From assembly GCA_903928445.1 (NCBI GenBank), contig CAIYRB010000102.1, positions 1 to 64,000 of the forward strand: a stretch of 64,000 nucleotides of DNA, read 5' to 3'. The stretch's first letter is position 1. The number at the start of each line of letters is the position of its first letter. Shown piece by piece: positions 670-30,927 of this stretch. Position numbers and translations under genes: made by a program. The DNA comes from an uncultured Pseudomonadota bacterium. Lineage in GTDB: Bacteria > Bdellovibrionota_B > Oligoflexia > Oligoflexales > CAIYRB01. The notes beneath the pieces were generated by a model. The model saw only the letters and a program-made list of their open reading frames with translations, made no database searches and had not been told where the DNA came from.

Positions 670-2220
670 GTGGCTGAGTTGGCTTATATACCCAAGGCGG
701 CGCACCACGTTGCCAGAGCCTGTTTCGTTGTCATTGCTGCGGCGAGCTGCAAGGCTATCGATTCATCACCTGCAAAATCTTTAGATGCTAACGAGCTGAG
801 TACCGCCGCCGTAGGGGAAACCTGGCCTAAGGAGCAGCAGCGACGGCAGGATGCATTCGTCAGATATCTTGAAGAAAACCGAACGCAATATGAGGCCTTC
901 CAAATTGCCCCGGTTGGCACCAGGGGGATTCCGGCAGCGCTTTTTCGCGAGCTGCCTAAGGTCTTTCCTGATCTCTGGGGGCCCGCCGCATTGCGTGACA
1001 AACTCGGCATGCATCCGGGCCCTGACGGACTGCCTCGCGAGTTGCGCCTAGGACACACGAGTACCGGGGAGGAGTATTTCAGCTTTAGCTGCGCCACGTG
1101 TCATACGGGAGTCGTCCGTATTGCTGGTGTTGAGAGTGATATTCCCGGCGCGCCGAGCAACACGCTCGACCTGCATGGATATCGGCATCAATGGTACCTA
1201 ACCGTCACCGATCCGCGCTTCAGTGCTGCCAATCTCCCGGAGGCCGCGCCGCTTTTAGAGGCGTTTAAGACTTCGGTTGTCGCCACCGAGGAGAGCGTGC
1301 ATCACTGGCTTGGCAACGGGGGTTACGTTGATGATCCAAAGTTGCTCGAAGGTGGTGTGCCTGGGGTGCAGGATGCATTTGGTTTGACCGTCGTCAACAT
1401 GCTCGTGCGGCCGGCAGCAGCCGCCGCTAGTCCAGCTAGCGACGTCAGCTCGCTGCTCCCGTCTAAGGCCTCGCTCGCTGATATTATGAGCGTATGGCAG
1501 CAAGGGCAGCGACACCTCTCCCAGTGGGACGGTAGCATCAGCGCGCGGTTGATTCGCAATCTTGGCGCCGAGCTCGGCGTTATGGGCAATCCGCAGTATG
1601 TCGATTTTGCCAACGCCAGGCTCTTGACGCCATTCGTCGCGGGTTGGCCGGCACCGGTTTATCCTTTCGCCGTGGACCGCGCCAAAGCCACCGCGGGCGA
1701 GGCCATATTCACGCAGTCTTGTCGCGGCTGCCACGACCAGGAAGCCTTGCTCCCCGTAGGTGCTATCGGCACCGATCCTGGTCGGGCGCTGGTGGTGACG
1801 CCGGCGGCAAGGACGGGACTCATCAAAGCGCTCAAAGCGAGCTGCCTAGATCCCGCTGAGCCCGGTTGCCAAGTGACCGATGACGAAGTTCTCGCCAATC
1901 GCTCAGCGCCTGGGTATGTCGCCTTGCCGCTTGCCGGCATTTGGGCACGCGCGCCTTATCTGCACAATGGCTCGGTGCCGACCCTCTTTCATCTCTTGGT
2001 ACCGGGCTCGCGCCCGGCGGTCTTTCAACGTGGCAGCGCCGACTATGACCAGGACAAGGTCGGATTTGTCTGGACCACCGGGGGTAAGGACGTCTCAACC
2101 CATCGCCCCGGACTAGCCAATAGCGGCCATGCTGATCCCAGCGTCTTTTTTGGTGGCCATGATTTTGCGAGCGAGCCGGCCAAGCTGGAGGCTCTGTTGG
2201 AATACCTGAAGACCCTCTAA
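670..2220 (+). CDS. RoxA-like / di-heme c-type cytochrome lipoprotein
   Basis: Two heme motifs (CATCH, CRGCH), lipobox-like AAASC at the N-terminus, and the C-terminal block APYLHNGSVPTL...DYDQDKVGF typical of RoxA/di-heme peroxidase-like proteins. Confidence 0.75.
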   Translation: MAELAYIPKAAHHVARACFVVIAAASCKAIDSSPAKSLDANELSTAAVGETWPKEQQRRQDAFVRYLEENRTQYEAFQIAPVGTRGIPAALFRELPKVFPDLWGPAALRDKLGMHPGPDGLPRELRLGHTSTGEEYFSFSCATCHTGVVRIAGVESDIPGAPSNTLDLHGYRHQWYLTVTDPRFSAANLPEAAPLLEAFKTSVVATEESVHHWLGNGGYVDDPKLLEGGVPGVQDAFGLTVVNMLVRPAAAAASPASDVSSLLPSKASLADIMSVWQQGQRHLSQWDGSISARLIRNLGAELGVMGNPQYVDFANARLLTPFVAGWPAPVYPFAVDRAKATAGEAIFTQSCRGCHDQEALLPVGAIGTDPGRALVVTPAARTGLIKALKASCLDPAEPGCQVTDDEVLANRSAPGYVALPLAGIWARAPYLHNGSVPTLFHLLVPGSRPAVFQRGSADYDQDKVGFVWTTGGKDVSTHRPGLANSGHADPSVFFGGHDFASEPAKLEALLEYLKTL

Positions 2221-21905: not shown

Positions 21906-22685
21906 TCACTGCAGCGGTATTGGTTTCACGCCGGTCGAAATATCATAGTGATATTGGATTAGGTGCTCCAGATCATGGTTGTAGTCGGTGTCTTTGACCA
22001 AGTCACTTAGGGCCGAAAGGGTCTTGAGTGGCAGGTCATGGCTGATGAAGTTGACGACAAAATCTGGAATGTTACCGCCGGGGTCTAGGACTACAGAGAA
22101 ATCAACCTCGGTCCGTTCATTGCCGCCACCTAGCGGCGTCATGGCCAACTTCGAACGCATCAGCGGCAGCCGTACCATACTCTTGACCGGAGGGTATTTG
22201 GCGTGGTCGGTCGTCTGAGTTTCAACGGTCAAACCAGCAGGGATTGACGGTGTCGCCGGGGTGACGACGACATGCGACTTGATGACGTAGTCGCGGTTGT
22301 GCAGGGGCCACGGTGATTTATTGATGGCATAGAAGACGCTGTACTGCGAGCTGAACGGCGCTTTCAAATCTTTGACGTTGTAGTTTCGATCGACCAATTC
22401 GCCGTGAATACAGCCTTCAAGCCAGCGCGGCATTTTGCTTGGCTCGGAAATGATCGAGATGATCTTCGCCATGCTGGCTTTGACCTCGCCGACGCCGCGG
22501 AATTCATAGAGCGACGTCCCAGGGACATCGCGTCGGTAGATCCGCACGCCGCCTTCTTCGCCCAGCGGTGACCACTCTGCTTGGGCCGCCGCCAGACCGT
22601 GACTAGGCGTAAACATGGTCGAACTTATCGTCAGTATGGTCGAGGCGACCACTAAGGCTAAGAGTGGCCTGAATCCGGAACCCAT
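21906..22685 (-). CDS. START-domain protein, secreted
   Basis: Signal peptide; GVRIYRRDVPGTSLYEFRGVGEVKASM, WPLHNRDYVIKSHV. Confidence 0.75.
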   Translation of the reverse strand: MGSGFRPLLALVVASTILTISSTMFTPSHGLAAAQAEWSPLGEEGGVRIYRRDVPGTSLYEFRGVGEVKASMAKIISIISEPSKMPRWLEGCIHGELVDRNYNVKDLKAPFSSQYSVFYAINKSPWPLHNRDYVIKSHVVVTPATPSIPAGLTVETQTTDHAKYPPVKSMVRLPLMRSKLAMTPLGGGNERTEVDFSVVLDPGGNIPDFVVNFISHDLPLKTLSALSDLVKDTDYNHDLEHLIQYHYDISTGVKPIPLQ

Positions 22686-22857: not shown

Positions 22858-25800
22858 TTATTTTTTACCGCGGAACTGAAACTGATTATGACACGTTTCG
22901 CACTGGCTGAAGCCAGCTTGTTTGTGATTAGGGAAGCTGACCAGCAGCGAGTCCTCAAGGTGGCAACTGACGCACTCAGCACTCTTGCCCTGGTAGACCC
23001 CGTGTGCATGACATTCGCCGCATTCAAGCAGGCGGTGGGCACCGCGCAGCGGGAAGTCCGTCATGGCATGTTGAAACTTTGGTGCGCTCCAGAATTGCTG
23101 GATATGACAGCTCTTGCAGTCGGGTTGCGAGCCGAGGTGGACGTCGTCCTTTTGGTGGCAGAGCTTGCAGTCGTCACCGGTGCCGCTGAGTTGGCGATTG
23201 TCGGTATGGCACTGATTGCAGTCGAGCAGCCTATGCACGCCAGTCAGAATGAAGTCCTTGTGGAATCCAGCCGTCGCCCCCCATCCGGCATCGGTATGGC
23301 AGGTCGAGCACTTCGGTCCAAACCGTCCAGCATGCGGGTCTTTATGACACAGGGCGCAGTCCTTGGTGAGCAGGCCATCGAAGATAAACTTGCCTTTGGG
23401 GTGATGCGGTGACTGCTTATAGGTCGCCGTTGTCGGCGTATGGCATTCAACGCATTTGACCTCGACGTGCTTGTTTTTGACATCAAAGCGCGCCAGTTTA
23501 TGGTGATTGAAGGTCAGGCCCTTGGCGAAGTTGTTTTGATTATGACAGGTTGTGCAGACCTGGCCAGCCAAGGGCGGGTGGAACTGCTTGACGTGCTCCT
23601 TGGCATGGCAGGCATCGCAGTAGCCGCGACTTTCAAAGGCAAACAGGAACTGGTTCGCTGGCTTTGGCGGCGAGGTGGCGAGCAGCTTGTTGGTTTTGAC
23701 GTGGCACTCGCCGCAGTTGTTTTTGAACTTGGCATGGGCTCCGACAATCTGGAATTTGGTCTGGCTATGATCAAACGGCGATCTTTGGCCGAAGGTCTTT
23801 TGGTTGTGGCAGCTGAGGCACGGCTTTTTCGCAAACTGTTCGTCAAATTGACCGATGTGGACGTTTTTATGGCAAGAAAGGCAGAATCCTCCGGCGCTGC
23901 CGTCCACTCCCGGTGCGTCGAAGCGAAACTTCGCCGCCGGCCGTGGTGGCGTCGTCTCTAGCATCTGGTGGGTCTTGACGTGGCACTTGGCGCAATTGGT
24001 TTTGATATCGGCATGGGCCTCGACGAGTTTAAACCGCGTTTTATCGTGATCAAAGCCGCTCAGGTCCTTAAAGCTTTTGACATTGTGGCATTGCAGGCAG
24101 TTATCGCTGGCCGAAGCGGGGCTGAACTGCTCTTTGTGGATGTTCTTGTGGCAATCAACGCAGAATCCGCTTTGCGGATGCTCGAAGATAAACTTGCCTG
24201 CCGGCTTTGGTGGTTTGATCGGTAACATCGAGGCGCTTGGCTTGTGGCACTTGACGCAATCCGTTGCCAGCTTTTCATGGGCGCCGGTGATCTTGAAGCG
24301 GGACTCGTTGTGATTATAGCGCAGGTTGGCGAAGGCGACGGTGTCATGGCATGTGGCGCATGAGGCTGCCACGAGTTTAGGCTCAAATTGATTGGAGTGT
24401 ACCGTGACGTGACAACTGACGCAGAATTGCTTGTCGGCATTAGCAAACTTATAGACGGACTTGCCATTTTTAAGGTGACAGCTGGCACAGCTGATCTTGT
24501 TGTGGTCGCCGGTCAGGGGAAAGCGCGTCTGGGTGCTATGGTTAAAGCCGCTGCCGTTTAAGTTGACGGATTTCCAACCCTGCGTCGTGTGGCAGGTGCT
24601 GCATTTATTCTTGCGAAAGACCTCCGCGGATTCCTTCAGGTGCGGACTAGCATGGCAGGTCTCACAGGTTTTGCCGGCAAGCTCAGGGAATTCATACTTG
24701 CGGGCGGTATCCGGTGCTTTTTGGCCTTTGACCAGTGGCACATGGCAGCCAAAGCATTTGACCCCGATGTGTTTGCCATCGATGGGGTAGTTGGTCGACG
24801 TGTTGTGGTTGAAGTGCAAATCTGCCTTCCAGCCTGCCTCGGTATGGCAGGTTTTACATTGCGCCAGGACGCCCAGCTTTGGCGAGGTCTCGCCGCGAAA
24901 CCCATGGAAGTCCTTATGACAGGAGGCGCAGTCGCTTTTTAAGCCGGTAAAATTGGCGTGTTTTAGGTCGGTCTTGGCGCCTTTGGGCGGCTTGTGGCAG
25001 TCGACACAGGCCGTGGTTTGATGCTTGCCAAGCAAGCTAAAGCCGGTGATTTGGTGGTCAAAATGAGTGATCTTCCAGGTCTCTTGACCTTGGCTGTGGC
25101 ATTGCAGGCAGTTGCCGCCCTGAAATTTGCCCTGCAGATGATCTTTGTGAAAGTCGACGTGACAAGTCAGGCATTGCTGCTTGGGCAGTTCGGGGAATTT
25201 ATACTTGGCCGAGGCTTTGCCCTTAGGCAAATGGCAGGTGGCGCATTTGATCTTGGCATGGTCGCCGATGAGCGCATAGCCAGTCGCTTTTTTATGGTCG
25301 AACTCGGCACCTTTCCAGGTCGCATCGGAATGGCAAGCGCTGCACTCCTTGGCCGCCCACTGTGGCGGAAAAGCGTGGATGTCATCCTTGCGGTGGCAGC
25401 CATTACAGGTCTGGGTCTTGCCAAAGAAGCGGGTGTCACTGGACCGCGACATGGTGGCGCCGCGCTTTTCGGTGTGGCACTTGACGCATTTGATCTTGGC
25501 GTGAGCACCATGCAGGATGAAGCCGGTTTTGCTATGGTCAAACGTCTTACTGCTGACGACCGTGCTATTTAGGTCGCGGCCCTTGTGATCACTATGGCAG
25601 CCGATACAAGCTTGTTTGGTCATGGCGTGAAAGCTTTTTCTTTTGCGAATCGACTGCTGGATATCGCTATGGCAAGTCAGGCATTTGGCATCTGGGACGC
25701 CTTTGCCCGCATCATGACACTTAAGGCATGCGCCGTGTTCCAGCGAACGGTGGGCGAACATCAGTGGTCCTGGTGCCAGTAGCTTGTTAAAGACCCCTTC

Positions 25801-25914
25801 ACTGGAGTCACCCTCTTTGGCGCTCTCACTACCCAGGTCTTTGGCTGGGTCAGCCAAGGCAGGTGCGCCCCAGCAGCTCAGCATGATGCAGCATGCGGTC
25901 AGAAGTCGCAGCAC
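22858..25914 (-). CDS. Giant multiheme c-type cytochrome with 36 CxxCH motifs
   Basis: 36 CxxCH motifs counted in the 1018-aa translation; signal peptide ending ...GAPALA; about 11-12 repeats of F(D/N)H..T.F.L.G.H....CxxCH. Confidence 0.95.
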   Translation of the reverse strand: MLRLLTACCIMLSCWGAPALADPAKDLGSESAKEGDSSEGVFNKLLAPGPLMFAHRSLEHGACLKCHDAGKGVPDAKCLTCHSDIQQSIRKRKSFHAMTKQACIGCHSDHKGRDLNSTVVSSKTFDHSKTGFILHGAHAKIKCVKCHTEKRGATMSRSSDTRFFGKTQTCNGCHRKDDIHAFPPQWAAKECSACHSDATWKGAEFDHKKATGYALIGDHAKIKCATCHLPKGKASAKYKFPELPKQQCLTCHVDFHKDHLQGKFQGGNCLQCHSQGQETWKITHFDHQITGFSLLGKHQTTACVDCHKPPKGAKTDLKHANFTGLKSDCASCHKDFHGFRGETSPKLGVLAQCKTCHTEAGWKADLHFNHNTSTNYPIDGKHIGVKCFGCHVPLVKGQKAPDTARKYEFPELAGKTCETCHASPHLKESAEVFRKNKCSTCHTTQGWKSVNLNGSGFNHSTQTRFPLTGDHNKISCASCHLKNGKSVYKFANADKQFCVSCHVTVHSNQFEPKLVAASCATCHDTVAFANLRYNHNESRFKITGAHEKLATDCVKCHKPSASMLPIKPPKPAGKFIFEHPQSGFCVDCHKNIHKEQFSPASASDNCLQCHNVKSFKDLSGFDHDKTRFKLVEAHADIKTNCAKCHVKTHQMLETTPPRPAAKFRFDAPGVDGSAGGFCLSCHKNVHIGQFDEQFAKKPCLSCHNQKTFGQRSPFDHSQTKFQIVGAHAKFKNNCGECHVKTNKLLATSPPKPANQFLFAFESRGYCDACHAKEHVKQFHPPLAGQVCTTCHNQNNFAKGLTFNHHKLARFDVKNKHVEVKCVECHTPTTATYKQSPHHPKGKFIFDGLLTKDCALCHKDPHAGRFGPKCSTCHTDAGWGATAGFHKDFILTGVHRLLDCNQCHTDNRQLSGTGDDCKLCHQKDDVHLGSQPDCKSCHIQQFWSAPKFQHAMTDFPLRGAHRLLECGECHAHGVYQGKSAECVSCHLEDSLLVSFPNHKQAGFSQCETCHNQFQFRGKK

Positions 25915-27368
25915 TAGAGGCGCTCCAGTCGCGGGGCACGCTCGCGGGTTGGGGTTAGCTGGCGGCTGCCGAAGCGGTAGCCTAGGGTCATCAAGGCGCT
26001 GGTGAGCAGAGCTTTTTCGTCCTTGGCGAGCTCGAAGGTCAGTGAGCCGACCAAGCGCGTGCTCAACATGGTCGTCAGGCTCAGGTCAAAGATCAGTGGA
26101 TGCAGGGTTTCGCCGTTGTCGCGGTGTTCGATCATGGCCAGTTGCGTGAAATCGACGTCAACCTTGGCGGTGAAATAACTGGCGCCAAAGCGGGCGATGA
26201 GGTCGTGGCTGTTAAAGCTTTTACGGTAGCCGGCCCCGGCAAAGGCGGCGAAGCGGCCCTTTTGCAGATTGGTTGCGACGAGTTTGGCGTTGACGCTCGC
26301 GGCATTTTTTTGATCGCTGCCGCGCACGCCGATGCTCGAGACGCCCTCTAGCATCAGTCCTTTGTCCAACTTGAAGCGGGCATCAGCGCGGCCCTCCGTG
26401 TAAGCGCTAGCTGGGAGAATGTCGCGCAGATCGCGCTGTCTTTTATACTCGGTCGCGTCGATGCGCAGAGCCGCCAGCGTGCCAGAGAAGCGGGCGGTCC
26501 ATTGGTGATAGGCCGAAGCCCAAAGATTGCGCAGATGGACGCTTGGCTCCACATCGACGTGGGACAGGTAGGTAAAGCGCGTTTGTTCACTCGGCTGATG
26601 CACGATATTGCTGTACCAAAACAGGTAGTTTTTTAACGGCAGTGCACTATCCGCTGTTTCTGACTGCTGGGTCGTCGCACCGTCCGGCAGGGGCTGAGCC
26701 CGCTCAATATAGGTGCCGGGAGGCTGCACGGCGCTGACTGGCTGGCGCAGGACTAAAGCGGTGCTGGCATAGGTGCTGCGTTGCCAGTCTGGACCTTGAT
26801 CTTGGTACTGGGCATAGGCGCCAGCTTGGTGGTCTTCTTTAGCCAGTTGCAAGGTTTGTCCATGGCGCTGCTCGGGAAAGAGTCCGGCAAAGGCGCCGAT
26901 CTTGATCTTGGCGCCGGCTTTGATGCCGACGTCGACGCCGTCGTTACCTAGGACCGCGGCATCGGCAATAGGAAAGCGGCCAAGGGCCCAGTAGTAGGAC
27001 CCTTGATCATAGGGGTGTTTGACCGCCAGCTGCCGCAGTTGCGGCTCGTTGGACGGAATTAAACGTAGGCCGTTAGCGTCGAGAGCGCCGGCGAAGTAGT
27101 CGTATTTATCGCGAAGGTCCAAGGTAAACTGGTTCTTGTATGGTCCAATCTTGGCCGCATCAAAGTAAAGGCTGCCAAAGGCCGCCAAGGAATCGTTTTG
27201 ATCCGAGCCGGTGAACGGCGTGCTGTCCTTCTCGTGTGCGGAAAAAACTCCGGCATTGACGTGTCCAGCGTAGTCGATTGCCGCAGCGGGTGCGGCATGG
27301 ACGACCGTCGCAAAAAGGGTCCATAGACATCGTCGTGTCGGCATTGAAAGTGGACGAGCTGAGTGCAT
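25914..27368 (-). CDS. Outer-membrane beta-barrel protein, operon partner of the multiheme cytochrome
   Basis: Signal peptide; alternating aromatic/hydrophobic strands (FTLDLRDKYDYFAGAL, FTRYLSHVDV-like, LMTLGYRFG); 1-nt overlap with the cytochrome gene; no CxxCH. Confidence 0.7.
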   Translation of the reverse strand: MHSARPLSMPTRRCLWTLFATVVHAAPAAAIDYAGHVNAGVFSAHEKDSTPFTGSDQNDSLAAFGSLYFDAAKIGPYKNQFTLDLRDKYDYFAGALDANGLRLIPSNEPQLRQLAVKHPYDQGSYYWALGRFPIADAAVLGNDGVDVGIKAGAKIKIGAFAGLFPEQRHGQTLQLAKEDHQAGAYAQYQDQGPDWQRSTYASTALVLRQPVSAVQPPGTYIERAQPLPDGATTQQSETADSALPLKNYLFWYSNIVHQPSEQTRFTYLSHVDVEPSVHLRNLWASAYHQWTARFSGTLAALRIDATEYKRQRDLRDILPASAYTEGRADARFKLDKGLMLEGVSSIGVRGSDQKNAASVNAKLVATNLQKGRFAAFAGAGYRKSFNSHDLIARFGASYFTAKVDVDFTQLAMIEHRDNGETLHPLIFDLSLTTMLSTRLVGSLTFELAKDEKALLTSALMTLGYRFGSRQLTPTRERAPRLERL

Positions 27369-27395
27369 CGAATTCCAACTGTGAGGGCAACAGCT

Positions 27396-28787
27396 CTAGG
27401 ATTTTTTACGCGCTTCACCAAACTTTTTGTCGATCTTGATGCCTAAGGATTGCAGGAATGCGAACGGCATCTCAGCTCCAGCGAAGATAAAGATGAACTG
27501 ATTGGGCAGACGACTAGCGATGCCGTTCGCCTCAATGGCCAGGAAGTCGGCTTCGATCCGTGTCACAAAGGTATTAAACATGATCGTCACCAGCTTGCGC
27601 GCCGCCATGGACTGTAGGATATCGATATTTTCCTGATTGGCGCGGTTGAAGCCCGGGGTGCGCACCAGAATCGTCACCTTGTTACGAAGCTCCGGCTTGG
27701 CCAGGAATTGCGCGGCCTCGACGGCCGCGTTGCCGCCGCCGATCACGGCTACGTGCATGCGCTGATACTGCTCTGGTTCCAGTAGATTGTAGGTGACCTT
27801 GGCGAGGTCTTCGCCTGGCACATCGAGTTTGCGCGGCGTCCCGCGAACGCCCATGGCGAGGACGACCTTTTTTGCTTTGATCACGCCCTGGGTCGTCTCG
27901 GTGAGGAACAGCTCGCCTTCTTTGCGCAAGCTGATGAAGCGACAACCCTCGCGCACCTTGAGGCCGGTGCGGCGACGAACCATGCTCCAATACGCCAACA
28001 GCTCTTCTTTGGTGACCTTGTTGCGAGGAAATTTCATCGTGCCGACGATCGGCAGCGTTGCCGGCTGTGACATCACGACCTTTTGCCTAGGGAAATTAAA
28101 GATCGTACCGCCGACCGAATTTTGATCGATGCACTTATAAGGACGCTTGGCCGCAATCGCTGCGAGCGCGGCCGATAGCCCGGCGGCGCCAGCGCCGACG
28201 ATGAGGATATCGCAGTCAGCCTTGCTGCCACCTCTGAGATGTTGCACCGCATGCTCGACGGCCATACGGCCTTGCTTGACGGCATTACGGATAAGTCCCA
28301 TGCCACCGAGTTCACCGACGATATAGAGGCCCTTGACGTTGGTTTCAAAATCGCCGGTGATGCGCGGCAAATCCATGCCGCGGGTCTTGGTGCCAAACAC
28401 CAGCGAGATGGCACCAAAGGGGCAAGCGACCTCGCACTGGCCATGGCCGACGCATTTTGTCGGCGCCACCAAGACCGCCTTATGGTCGATCATCTGGAGG
28501 ATCTCGCCCTCAGGGCAAGCTTTGACACAGGCGCCGCAACCAGCACAACGCACTGGGTCGATATAGGGGTGTAGGCTGATCGGCTCGGCCATATCGTTAA
28601 CCACGGCCTGTTTATAGGCGTGTAGCCCTTCGCTATGGACGGCGCGACGGCGGCGAATCCCTACAGCTGCGATCAGCAGCAGTGAACCAATGCCGATGTA
28701 CTCCGCCGACTTGCCGAGGAACACAGATATATGCGACCAATGCAATGGTCTGTCCTCCCCAGTTCGAGTGCTAGCATAGGATTGCAA
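27396..28787 (-). CDS. Membrane-anchored 2x[4Fe-4S] ferredoxin / FAD-NAD(P) oxidoreductase fusion
   Basis: N-terminal TM segment; CAGCGACVKACPEG and CVGHGQCEVACPFG; FAD GAGAAGLSAALAA; NAD(P) VIGGGNAAVEAAQF. Confidence 0.88.
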   Translation of the reverse strand: MQSYASTRTGEDRPLHWSHISVFLGKSAEYIGIGSLLLIAAVGIRRRRAVHSEGLHAYKQAVVNDMAEPISLHPYIDPVRCAGCGACVKACPEGEILQMIDHKAVLVAPTKCVGHGQCEVACPFGAISLVFGTKTRGMDLPRITGDFETNVKGLYIVGELGGMGLIRNAVKQGRMAVEHAVQHLRGGSKADCDILIVGAGAAGLSAALAAIAAKRPYKCIDQNSVGGTIFNFPRQKVVMSQPATLPIVGTMKFPRNKVTKEELLAYWSMVRRRTGLKVREGCRFISLRKEGELFLTETTQGVIKAKKVVLAMGVRGTPRKLDVPGEDLAKVTYNLLEPEQYQRMHVAVIGGGNAAVEAAQFLAKPELRNKVTILVRTPGFNRANQENIDILQSMAARKLVTIMFNTFVTRIEADFLAIEANGIASRLPNQFIFIFAGAEMPFAFLQSLGIKIDKKFGEARKKS

Positions 28788-28947: not shown

Positions 28948-30927
28948 TCAGGGCTTGTGCGACAACGGCGGCGGTGGACCGACCAGGTGCAAGGCGTGTA
29001 TTGCGGCAGCGATCTCTGCCTGCGCGGGTTGATCCGGGGCGATCTTGGCGTAGTCAGCGTAGAGCCGTTCGGCTTCATCTGCTCGCCCTAAGGCCAGCAG
29101 GCTTTTGCCCATCTCTACCACGACGCGCACGTAGTATGGGTACTGCCGGTGGAGAAGGCTCCATTGATCCAGCGATTCAGACCAGCGCCCCTGCTCTTGT
29201 AGGTTGGTGGCCCAACTTTGGCGGGGTCCATAGGCTGTTGGCGCCAAGCTGGTCGCTTGGGCAAAGGCCTTCTCTGCCTCTGGCAGGCGATGCGCTTTGG
29301 TCAGTGCCGAGCCGAGATTGGTATAGGCTTGCTGGTACTCGGACGCTATCCGGATGGCTTCGCGACACTCAAAGATGGCTTCGTCGAGGCGCCCGAGGTC
29401 GGTGAGCGCGGCGCAGCGATTGCAGTGGGCGAGGGGATAGGCTGAATGGAGTTTGATCGCGGCGGCATATTCGTCGGCCGCTTCTTTGGTCTCGCCTAGG
29501 TTCATGTGGGTGGTGCCCATATTATTATGTGGCCTGGACCATTCGGGAAGGGCCTGCTCGGCTCGCTGCAATAAGGGGATGGTGCCGCGCCAGTTGCCGC
29601 TGTTGGCGGTATCGTTGGAGAAGCCGACCAAGGCGACGGCACCGTTTGGTTCTTGCTCCAGGCTGTGGCCAAATAATTTACGTTCGCTCGACCAGGTGTC
29701 GACGAGGAAGGCGCTTTGCACGGCGAGACCGGCGAGGATCAGACCGAAGACGAGTTGCACGGGCTTGGTTTTGGTCCTAGGCAGATACAACGCCGCCACC
29801 AAAATCGCCGGGGCAAGCATCGCTAGATAGGCGTAGCGGTCGCACACCATCGAGAAGAACTGGTAGGCAAACTGCAGAAATCCCAGCGTTGGCAGCAACG
29901 CGACGGCAAAGGCCGCGAGCAAGATGGCCACCAGTTTAAGCCCTGGCGTGGGCTGTCGCCAACACCGCCAAAGCAGCGCTACGCCGATGACATAAGGAAG
30001 GCCCCCGCGCACCAGCAGCCAGGTGTCGCGCATCACCAAATCCGGCCTGCGGCCGTAGTCCAGGGCAAAACCGACGGGTATAAACGCTTTTTGTAGATAA
30101 AAAATCCAAGCGTCACCAGCGATCAAGGGTCTGAGCGACCAGGGTACTGGTGGAAATGGCCCCTCGGTACCCTGCGTCACGCTGGCCACCTTGAGGTACC
30201 AGGCAACGGTCAGTAGGTGCGGTATGACCAGCAGCACCGAGCGCCAACGCCAGCGCCCTTCAGTATACAGCGCCATCAGCACGAACAGCGGCGGCAGGAT
30301 CACCTCTGCTGGCTTTGCCATGATGGCTAAACTAAAGGCCGCATAGGCGGCGACGTAGCAGCCCAGGAGCTTGGTCCAGGGCGAGCTGGTAGTGCCTTGA
30401 GGCAAGGTAAGACGGCGGAGAAACCAGGAGTAGAACAACAAGGCGGCTAAACCAAAAAATCCCGACAAGACGTCCTTGGCGCCCGATACCCATGCCACCG
30501 CTTCGACTTGGATCGGATGGAGGGTGAAAAACAGCCCACCGATCAGCGCCGCCATAGTGCTAGCGCCAAAGCCCTCAAGCAGGAAGAGCACCAGCACCCC
30601 ATTGGCAGCATGCAGTAGCACGTTGCTCAAGTGATACAGCCACGGCTTGATCGACGGCACCTGCGCATCGCCATCCAGAGCATAGGACAGTGCCGTAATC
30701 CCGGACCAATAGGTGTAGGTCACAGGGATGTACAAGCCAAGAAACGGCGCGCGCCAATAGGCTGACACCGCATCGAGACTCAGCGCCTGCATGCGTGGGT
30801 TATTGCTGATATGCCGATCGTCATCATGCTCAAGGAAGCCAAAGCGCACGGCGTTGCCAAATACCAGCAGGACCAGGACCAAGATTATCGCGGGCCCTTG
30901 CCAGCGCCGGGTCAGCATACGGGGCAT
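28948..30927 (-). CDS. Polytopic GT-C-like membrane protein with C-terminal TPRs (TMTC-like)
   Basis: Multiple TM helices, EHDDDRHISNNPRMQ N-terminal motif, C-terminal TPRs (AYPLAHCNRCAALTDLGRLDEAIFECREAIRIA). Confidence 0.75.
   Translation of the reverse strand: MPRMLTRRWQGPAIILVLVLLVFGNAVRFGFLEHDDDRHISNNPRMQALSLDAVSAYWRAPFLGLYIPVTYTYWSGITALSYALDGDAQVPSIKPWLYHLSNVLLHAANGVLVLFLLEGFGASTMAALIGGLFFTLHPIQVEAVAWVSGAKDVLSGFFGLAALLFYSWFLRRLTLPQGTTSSPWTKLLGCYVAAYAAFSLAIMAKPAEVILPPLFVLMALYTEGRWRWRSVLLVIPHLLTVAWYLKVASVTQGTEGPFPPVPWSLRPLIAGDAWIFYLQKAFIPVGFALDYGRRPDLVMRDTWLLVRGGLPYVIGVALLWRCWRQPTPGLKLVAILLAAFAVALLPTLGFLQFAYQFFSMVCDRYAYLAMLAPAILVAALYLPRTKTKPVQLVFGLILAGLAVQSAFLVDTWSSERKLFGHSLEQEPNGAVALVGFSNDTANSGNWRGTIPLLQRAEQALPEWSRPHNNMGTTHMNLGETKEAADEYAAAIKLHSAYPLAHCNRCAALTDLGRLDEAIFECREAIRIASEYQQAYTNLGSALTKAHRLPEAEKAFAQATSLAPTAYGPRQSWATNLQEQGRWSESLDQWSLLHRQYPYYVRVVVEMGKSLLALGRADEAERLYADYAKIAPDQPAQAEIAAAIHALHLVGPPPPLSHKP

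Follow-up and report, generated by a model that had tools for sequence, protein, structure and literature searches.

A reduced PCC3-type gene cluster with a 36-heme cytochrome in an uncultured Bdellovibrionota-like bacterium

PCC3 is a porin–cytochrome system that was proposed in 2017 (He et al. 2017, PMC5566968), and its role in extracellular electron transfer has the status of a proposal (PMC12442390). Its inner-membrane protein (IMP) was likened by the PCC3 authors to ferric reductase (FRD) on account of two HX13H motifs. The cluster analysed here lies in a window of 64,000 nucleotides (contig CAIYRB010000102.1, positions 1 to 64,000) from an uncultured Bdellovibrionota-like bacterium and comprises the genes of an iron–sulfur flavoprotein (OX), a predicted barrel (BAR) and a multiheme cytochrome (CYT36). 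This cluster is related to PCC3, as a reduced and paralogous version, and is not an isolated alternative to MtrCAB; the operon probably encodes a reduced trans-envelope electron conduit of the PCC3 type.

The three genes and their products

All three open reading frames were recovered intact on the minus strand (Table 1), in the close packing first annotated; OX and BAR are separated by 27 bases, and the claimed overlap of the barrel and cytochrome genes by a single base was borne out. The OX gene was also confirmed, but with a different probable start: the TTG codon at 28745 is likelier than 28787, being preceded by a GGGGAGGA ribosome-binding site and matching the orthologue starts in the alignment. 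Two neighbouring genes were examined as possible members of the operon and left out of it. An upstream TPR gene was present, among the fetched clusters, in the closest congener alone, and a downstream START-like gene was present in none of them (the congener contig stops short of that position).

Table 1. Positions of the cluster genes and of the single IMP gene of the genome.
Feature	Position	Strand	Description
OX	27396..28745	(-)	Fe–S/FAD/NAD(P) oxidoreductase, membrane-anchored; TTG start
BAR	25914..27368	(-)	predicted outer-membrane beta-barrel; probable porin sheath of the conduit
CYT36	22858..25914	(-)	secreted c-type cytochrome; GTG start, sharing 1 nt with the BAR stop
IMP	C29:88802-89578		PCC3 inner-membrane protein; sole genomic copy, in the sister cluster

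The proteins of a congener are 93–97% identical to OX, BAR and CYT36, with dN/dS of ~0.06–0.10, so the trio does not consist of chance reading frames; these are intact, conserved genes under purifying selection. The cluster is kept in 6/6 genomes of the genus (one 36-heme locus is interrupted by a contig end) and occurs with additions in related families, and conservation of the trio in relatives, a check named beforehand, was thus confirmed. The order OX–BAR–cytochrome is retained at all complete 36-heme loci, and versions with 33, 27 and 24 hemes were found in relatives and paralogues. The branching order of the six species is identical in both paralogous OX clades.

CYT36 (1018 aa) contains exactly 36 CxxCH motifs, the number originally counted; shuffled sequences of the same composition averaged 0.4 such motifs and never had more than 4. 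The motifs are arranged in 12 three-heme repeats of 66–93 aa each, and a Sec-type signal agrees with the annotation as a secreted protein. A match to Pfam Cytochrome_C7 was obtained. Geobacter c7-repeat cytochromes (GSU1996, GSU2210) likewise consist of tandem three-heme units; they are not known to be co-encoded with OX or IMP. A phmmer search of CYT36 against the PDB gave zero matches, and the only match of its profile was a weak one, to the high-molecular-weight cytochrome c 2e84. With the CxxCH motifs masked, CYT36 scored 145 bits against the profile of the PCC3 periplasmic cytochromes vs. 44 bits against that of the extracellular ones, and by this sequence comparison it belongs to the periplasmic family and not to the extracellular one.

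BAR was modelled by AF2 as a 22-strand barrel (mean pLDDT 73.8), in line with the predicted nature of the middle protein, which had also been named beforehand as a check. Foldseek against the PDB returned generic porins and ushers and no specific relative. The protein is conserved across 17 further clusters. It is at best weakly related to the canonical PCC3 porin of ~820 aa (hhalign probability 43%) and matches the small porins of single-cytochrome clusters (97.4%).

OX begins with one transmembrane helix followed by RRRR, and its catalytic part is predicted to be cytoplasmic. The Fe–S motifs come next, followed by a YpdA/thioredoxin-reductase fold in which the C-terminal FAD motif has been moved ahead of the Rossmann motif; the FAD and NAD(P) Rossmann domains are of the YpdA/thioredoxin reductase-like type. 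For residues ~178–445, YpdA (bacillithiol disulfide reductase)/low-molecular-weight thioredoxin reductase was the best match in both sequence and fold (Foldseek 8e-22), and TIGR04018 was matched at 1e-45, under its curated equivalog cut-off. The linker fragment alone gave zero matches with phmmer; a ten-sequence profile of it picked up glutathione reductase and glutamate synthase, in both cases at their C-terminal FAD segments. YpdA and thioredoxin reductase are without the added helix and Fe–S domain of OX, and the order of the FAD motif is rearranged in the latter. The structure model is of moderate quality (pLDDT 72, pTM 0.56), and by this fold NAD(P)H would be the substrate. The initial annotation as an anchored 2x[4Fe–4S]/FAD/NAD(P) oxidoreductase holds for the anchor, the Fe–S motifs and the FAD/NAD(P) fold. 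The 2x[4Fe–4S] label is uncertain, because the first motif is CxxCxxCxxxCP and the second is CxxHxxCxxxCP (in 95/95 OX sequences) and the eight-cysteine pattern of 2[4Fe–4S] ferredoxins, with two CxxCxxCxxxCP, is not present.

Comparison with PCC3 and other systems

The same genome holds a fuller sister cluster, which consists of IMP, OX, a tetraheme lipoprotein, a barrel and a 27-heme cytochrome. Its IMP carries SGxxG and two WX3HX13H motifs, as in the PCC3 description, and two b hemes are predicted. PCC3 and the window cluster have in common a barrel and a homologous periplasmic multiheme cytochrome, the porin gene being represented by BAR, and homologues of OX adjoin PCC3 IMP genes. They differ in that the window cluster lacks an IMP with these motifs, the extracellular multiheme cytochrome and the tetraheme lipoprotein; OX lies inside the operon, BAR has 484 aa vs. 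~650–880 in PCC3 porins, and the periplasmic-type cytochrome has grown to 36 hemes vs. the usual 21–24. Besides the sister cluster, most relatives encode the tetraheme lipoprotein, and in relatives the extracellular partner appears to have been reduced to it. The unmasked scores of this lipoprotein, of 30–50 bits vs. 11–20, vanished entirely on masking of CxxCH, so kinship with the extracellular cytochrome is suggested at most.

Relatives with a single cytochrome (L053, L060, L065 and L075, from Nitrospirota, Desulfuromonadales and a deltaproteobacterial MAG) combine one cytochrome of 35–57 hemes with a porin of 415–443 aa and OX. Unlike the window cluster, they have IMP inside the same cluster, and, with CxxCH left unmasked, the extracellular profile matches the C-terminal part of their cytochrome.

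MtrCAB, with a single long cytochrome replacing its decaheme pair, had been the original comparison. PCC3 is the right one. CYT36 is no novel substitute for a periplasmic/extracellular pair, being a member of the PCC3 periplasmic family. MtrCAB and MtoAB resemble the present system by analogy, as a barrel with a multiheme wire crossing the outer membrane, but the cytochrome and the inner-membrane partners are others. Membership in MtrCAB was ruled out: no MtrA family member was found in the genome above the curated cut-off, the best TIGR03508 score being 33.8 bits vs. 192.2.

Co-occurrence of OX and IMP

In a sample of 144 genomes, OX and IMP were found together in 17, OX without IMP in 1, IMP without OX in 3, and neither in 123 (Fisher 4e-18). 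The corresponding numbers in a set of 120 genomes related to a Sideroxydans genome were 48, 3, 1 and 68 (1e-28), and 44/52 OX genes of this set adjoin IMP in divergent orientation. By gene content and neighbourhood, the predicted cytoplasmic iron–sulfur flavin enzyme accompanies the PCC3 system as a conserved partner. The texts of the PCC3 papers PMC5566968, PMC10734462 and PMC12442390 make no mention of OX. In two other genomes IMP is fused to a cytoplasmic-type multi-Fe–S domain, which supports electron transfer from Fe–S to IMP. The latter probably carries electrons over the inner membrane in the relatives.

Proposed electron path and alternatives

The trio is best read as an envelope electron conduit; the transfer steps and their direction, the contacts between the proteins and the shared use of IMP are inferred as follows. 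Electrons would be exchanged between NAD(P)H, FAD and the Fe–S clusters of membrane-anchored OX at the cytoplasmic face, then with the two b hemes of IMP, which could be supplied in trans from contig C29: the single genomic copy, in the sister cluster there, could serve both clusters. From IMP they would pass along the CYT36 wire to the 22-strand outer-membrane barrel and an extracellular acceptor, or from a donor in reverse. Outward flow would be downhill if OX is NAD(P)H-linked. OX and IMP might act like a split NADPH oxidase/ferric reductase, in which a cytoplasmic FAD/NAD(P)H part likewise supplies a two-b-heme membrane protein; here, the proteins are separate, Fe–S lies between FAD and heme, and the flavin domain is of the YpdA type, not the FNR type. 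MtrA spans ~100 Å with ten hemes. At ~1 nm per heme, CYT36 would measure ~36 nm and exceed a typical periplasm, and may thus enter or pass the barrel, replacing the missing extracellular cytochrome.

That the trio would suffice by itself to carry electrons from NAD(P)H to the outside, as initially annotated, is very improbable. In its favour, OX has a membrane anchor and shares an operon with BAR and CYT36. However, OX and IMP co-occur almost invariably, and OX, with one helix, no visible heme b site and an Fe–S/FAD part predicted to be cytoplasmic, leaves the trio without a bridge over the inner membrane. The window copy has neither IMP nor the tetraheme protein, and thus no inner-membrane route of its own. 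IMP is likewise absent beside the other 36-heme loci with a readable flank (L026–L028) and is single-copy in each genome. This pattern, together with the missing extracellular cytochrome, would suit a store or wire for electrons within the periplasm, joined to other periplasmic cytochromes and with no crossing of the outer membrane, its abundant hemes serving as the kind of capacitor that PMC10734462 suggests for PCC3. Such a role is unlikely, since BAR has been retained under purifying selection (dN/dS ~0.1) and the gene order is constant in complete 36-heme loci.

An inward conduit, in which CYT36 and the barrel gather electrons outside the cell, from donors such as Fe(II) or Mn(II), and pass them via IMP to the quinone pool, with OX in a side or regulatory role, is rather unlikely. 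This direction was proposed by the PCC3 authors for Fe(II) oxidisers, OX is tightly linked to the PCC3 IMP in Sideroxydans-centred genomes, and the host has a heme–copper oxidase as electron consumer. Reduction of NAD(P)+ with electrons from Fe(II) requires energy input, though, which leaves the steady presence of OX beside IMP unexplained, and no Fe(II) physiology is on record for the host. The preference of the PCC3 literature for Fe(II)-inward flow, the absence of IMP and of an extracellular cytochrome from the window cluster, and the weak PCC3 likeness of BAR all weigh against the conduit of the reduced PCC3 type, which is still regarded as probable.

A wider proposal is put forward tentatively, and may well prove wrong: OX would be an unrecognised fifth component of PCC3 and, with IMP, form a split NADPH-oxidase-like unit that passes NAD(P)H electrons through its Fe–S domain (one cluster motif His-substituted) to the periplasmic heme wire. 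PCC3 would then export electrons, or run both ways, against the part in Fe(II) oxidation that it is assumed to play, and here the 36-heme cytochrome alone would span the periplasm and the outer membrane.

No earlier report of a PCC3-type system in Bdellovibrionota was found by literature search. The system is extended to this group in a stripped version of a reductase, a barrel and one giant wire. PCC3 is widespread and is a candidate machine for iron oxidation or extracellular respiration; a conserved, adjacent and apparently NAD(P)H-linked Fe–S flavoprotein offers a biochemical handle on it, by which the direction of electron flow becomes testable.

Composition and inheritance of the window cluster

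The three minus-strand genes described in the initial annotation were confirmed as real from the window sequence, as was the 1-nt overlap between the genes of BAR (a predicted 22-strand outer-membrane barrel) and CYT36 (a secreted multiheme cytochrome). CYT36 carries 36 CxxCH motifs (shuffled sequences: 0.4 expected, maximum 4), arranged as twelve three-heme repeats of 66-93 residues each; its relatives contain 24, 27, 33 or 36 hemes, every count being a multiple of three, and the spacing is about 28-29 residues per heme in all of these proteins. Cytochrome c7/c3 and MtrC/MtrF-type Pfam domains were matched, and the 49 histidines beyond the CxxCH motifs would be enough for second ligands. For OX, the TM-anchored Fe-S/FAD/NAD(P) oxidoreductase, a start at 28787 was judged less likely than TTG 28745, which has GGGGAGGA upstream and was preferred because the orthologues begin at the same residue. 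Values of dN/dS between the window genome and its closest congener were 0.07 (OX), 0.10 (BAR) and 0.06 (CYT36, readable part of the gene only).

Two such clusters were found per genome in 6/6 genomes of the genus. The window type is ordered OX-(tetraheme)-BAR-36-heme, the tetraheme lipoprotein being present in 4/6 genomes; the window genome and its closest congener are the two without it. Sister-type clusters are ordered IMP-OX-(tetraheme)-BAR-24 or 27-heme (IMP: inner-membrane protein of the PCC3 porin-cytochrome system) and keep the lipoprotein in 4/6 genomes; another family in the same order has clusters that read IMP-OX-(tetraheme)-BAR-33-heme. The window genome has a single IMP, located in the sister cluster, and two copies of OX. 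In the OX tree, each cluster type forms its own clade and the branching order agrees between the two; both are therefore old and have descended vertically within the genus. All sequences of the genus and order nest among named Bdellovibrionota sequences (support 100/100), and one Acidobacteria MAG sits inside this clade; on this basis the host would belong to Bdellovibrionota. Further genes of the window and of other genomes are collated in the table.

Additional genes and gene sets in the window and in fetched loci of other genomes (L-numbers, with coordinates within each locus)
Location	Strand	Feature	Remarks
Window 670-2220	+	Protein with RoxA-like cytochrome c domain (PF21419)	Secreted rubber oxygenase family
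Window 21906-22685	-	Secreted 259-aa protein downstream of CYT36, resembling a START-type lipid-binding domain (by eye)	No Pfam or NCBIfam match; none among the fetched related clusters
Window 28948-30927	-	Multi-TM protein ending in TPR repeats	Immediately upstream of OX, same strand; among fetched clusters, only the closest congener has one
L045:8995-18008		Complete PCC3-like set incl. barrel, OX and IMP	Bdellovibrionales GWA2_49_15; 37-heme extracellular-type and 30-heme periplasmic-type cytochromes
L057:10245-12239		Secreted-looking Sel1/ankyrin-repeat protein (by eye)	Directly after OX; one locus examined closely
L121:5510-7492, L122:4857-6842		PCC3/PCC4-type IMP with N-terminal part resembling a cyclic-nucleotide-binding-like domain plus several [4Fe-4S] motifs	Natural fusion joining IMP to cytoplasmic Fe-S clusters

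Kinship to the PCC3 system

An alignment of OX was used to scan GTDB species genomes and yielded at least 544 relatives, of which 80 were kept (mainly Gamma-, Beta- and Alphaproteobacteria, plus Nitrospirota, KSB1, Ignavibacteriota, Acidobacteriota and others). Their neighbourhoods were mostly PCC3 clusters (PMC5566968, PMC10734462, PMC12442390), in which IMP is accompanied by two cytochromes, one usually of 21-24 hemes and the other of about 7-67, and by a large porin. The sister-cluster IMP matches the published PCC3 signature of one SGxxG and two WX3HX13H motifs.

Profiles were made from both PCC3 cytochromes and scored on sequences with masked CxxCH residues. CYT36 gave 145 bits with the periplasmic and 44 bits with the extracellular profile, and all fifteen relatives showed the same preference; CYT36 therefore belongs to the PCC3 periplasmic wire family. 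The tetraheme lipoprotein leaned to the extracellular family only when the CxxCH residues were left unmasked. By hhalign probability, BAR shows a clear relationship to porins from other Bdellovibrionota (100%) and to the small porins that single-cytochrome clusters of Nitrospirota and Desulfuromonadales encode (97.4%), whereas its relation to the large PCC3 porin is doubtful (43%). Since the window cluster lacks two defining PCC3 features, IMP and the extracellular cytochrome, it was classed as PCC3-related. The cluster is real and functional-looking, but it is a pared-down form of an already known putative system rather than a kind of its own. The GWA2_49_15 set may stand between canonical PCC3 and the window form.

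Anatomy of OX and proposed electron path

OX begins with one TM helix followed by RRRR, and by the positive-inside rule its remainder is predicted to be cytoplasmic. The two [4Fe-4S] clusters originally assigned are not certain: the second Fe-S motif is CxxHxxCxxxCP (95/95 sequences examined), so that one cluster is histidine-ligated or of the 3Fe type. The first motif, CxxCxxCxxxCP, was found in 75/95 sequences with the strict pattern. The flavin part matches YpdA/thioredoxin reductase, enzymes in which the "GD" FAD motif segment is normally C-terminal, whereas in OX it comes after the Fe-S domain and ahead of the Rossmann motif. The profile of this segment matches glutathione reductase residues 275-338 and glutamate synthase 406-449, and with phmmer the two parts of OX align to glutathione reductase in inverted order; taken one by one, the hits are weak (E 7e-4 to 7e-3). 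A circular permutation of the flavin domain is the best interpretation of this arrangement.

The trio had been proposed as a possible conduit; by itself it cannot carry electrons across the inner membrane. IMP was predicted by its discoverers to bind two b hemes. A putative Fe-S-to-IMP transfer at the cytoplasmic face is supported by the adjacency of IMP and OX in relatives and by two other genomes in which IMP carries a fused N-terminal domain containing several CxxCxxC-type Fe-S motifs. Beyond the inner membrane, electrons would enter the CYT36 wire from IMP. Ten hemes of MtrA span about 100 A, i.e. about 1 nm per heme, and by analogy the 36 hemes of CYT36 could reach some 36 nm. A typical periplasm is narrower than this, so the end of the wire could sit in or beyond the barrel. 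Electrons passing outward from NAD(P)H would run downhill; reducing NAD(P)+ by inward flow would cost energy. A heme-copper oxidase is encoded by the host, whose genome gave no match to the MtrA family above the cut-off.

Pairing of OX with the PCC3 inner-membrane protein

In 144 sampled genomes (IMP counted at E <= about 1e-37), 17 encoded both OX and IMP, one OX alone, three IMP alone and 123 neither (Fisher, 4e-18), and in 120 genomes from the family to which a Sideroxydans MAG belongs the corresponding counts were 48, 3, 1 and 68 (1e-28). Because the sampled genomes are related, both p-values overstate independence, although the 144 cover several separate families. The OX of the single OX-only genome among the 144 sits near a contig end. 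Within the Sideroxydans-MAG family, 44/52 OX genes lay <=2 kb from IMP, and each of these is transcribed divergently from it. ORFs of roughly 640-730 aa, similar in size to the Sel1/ankyrin-repeat gene of the table, follow OX in many gammaproteobacterial PCC3 loci. The PCC3 cluster as published consists of four genes, and the main text of the PCC3 papers covered here makes no mention of an OX-like protein. The near-invariant pairing of OX with the PCC3 IMP is a more interesting outcome than the window cluster itself.
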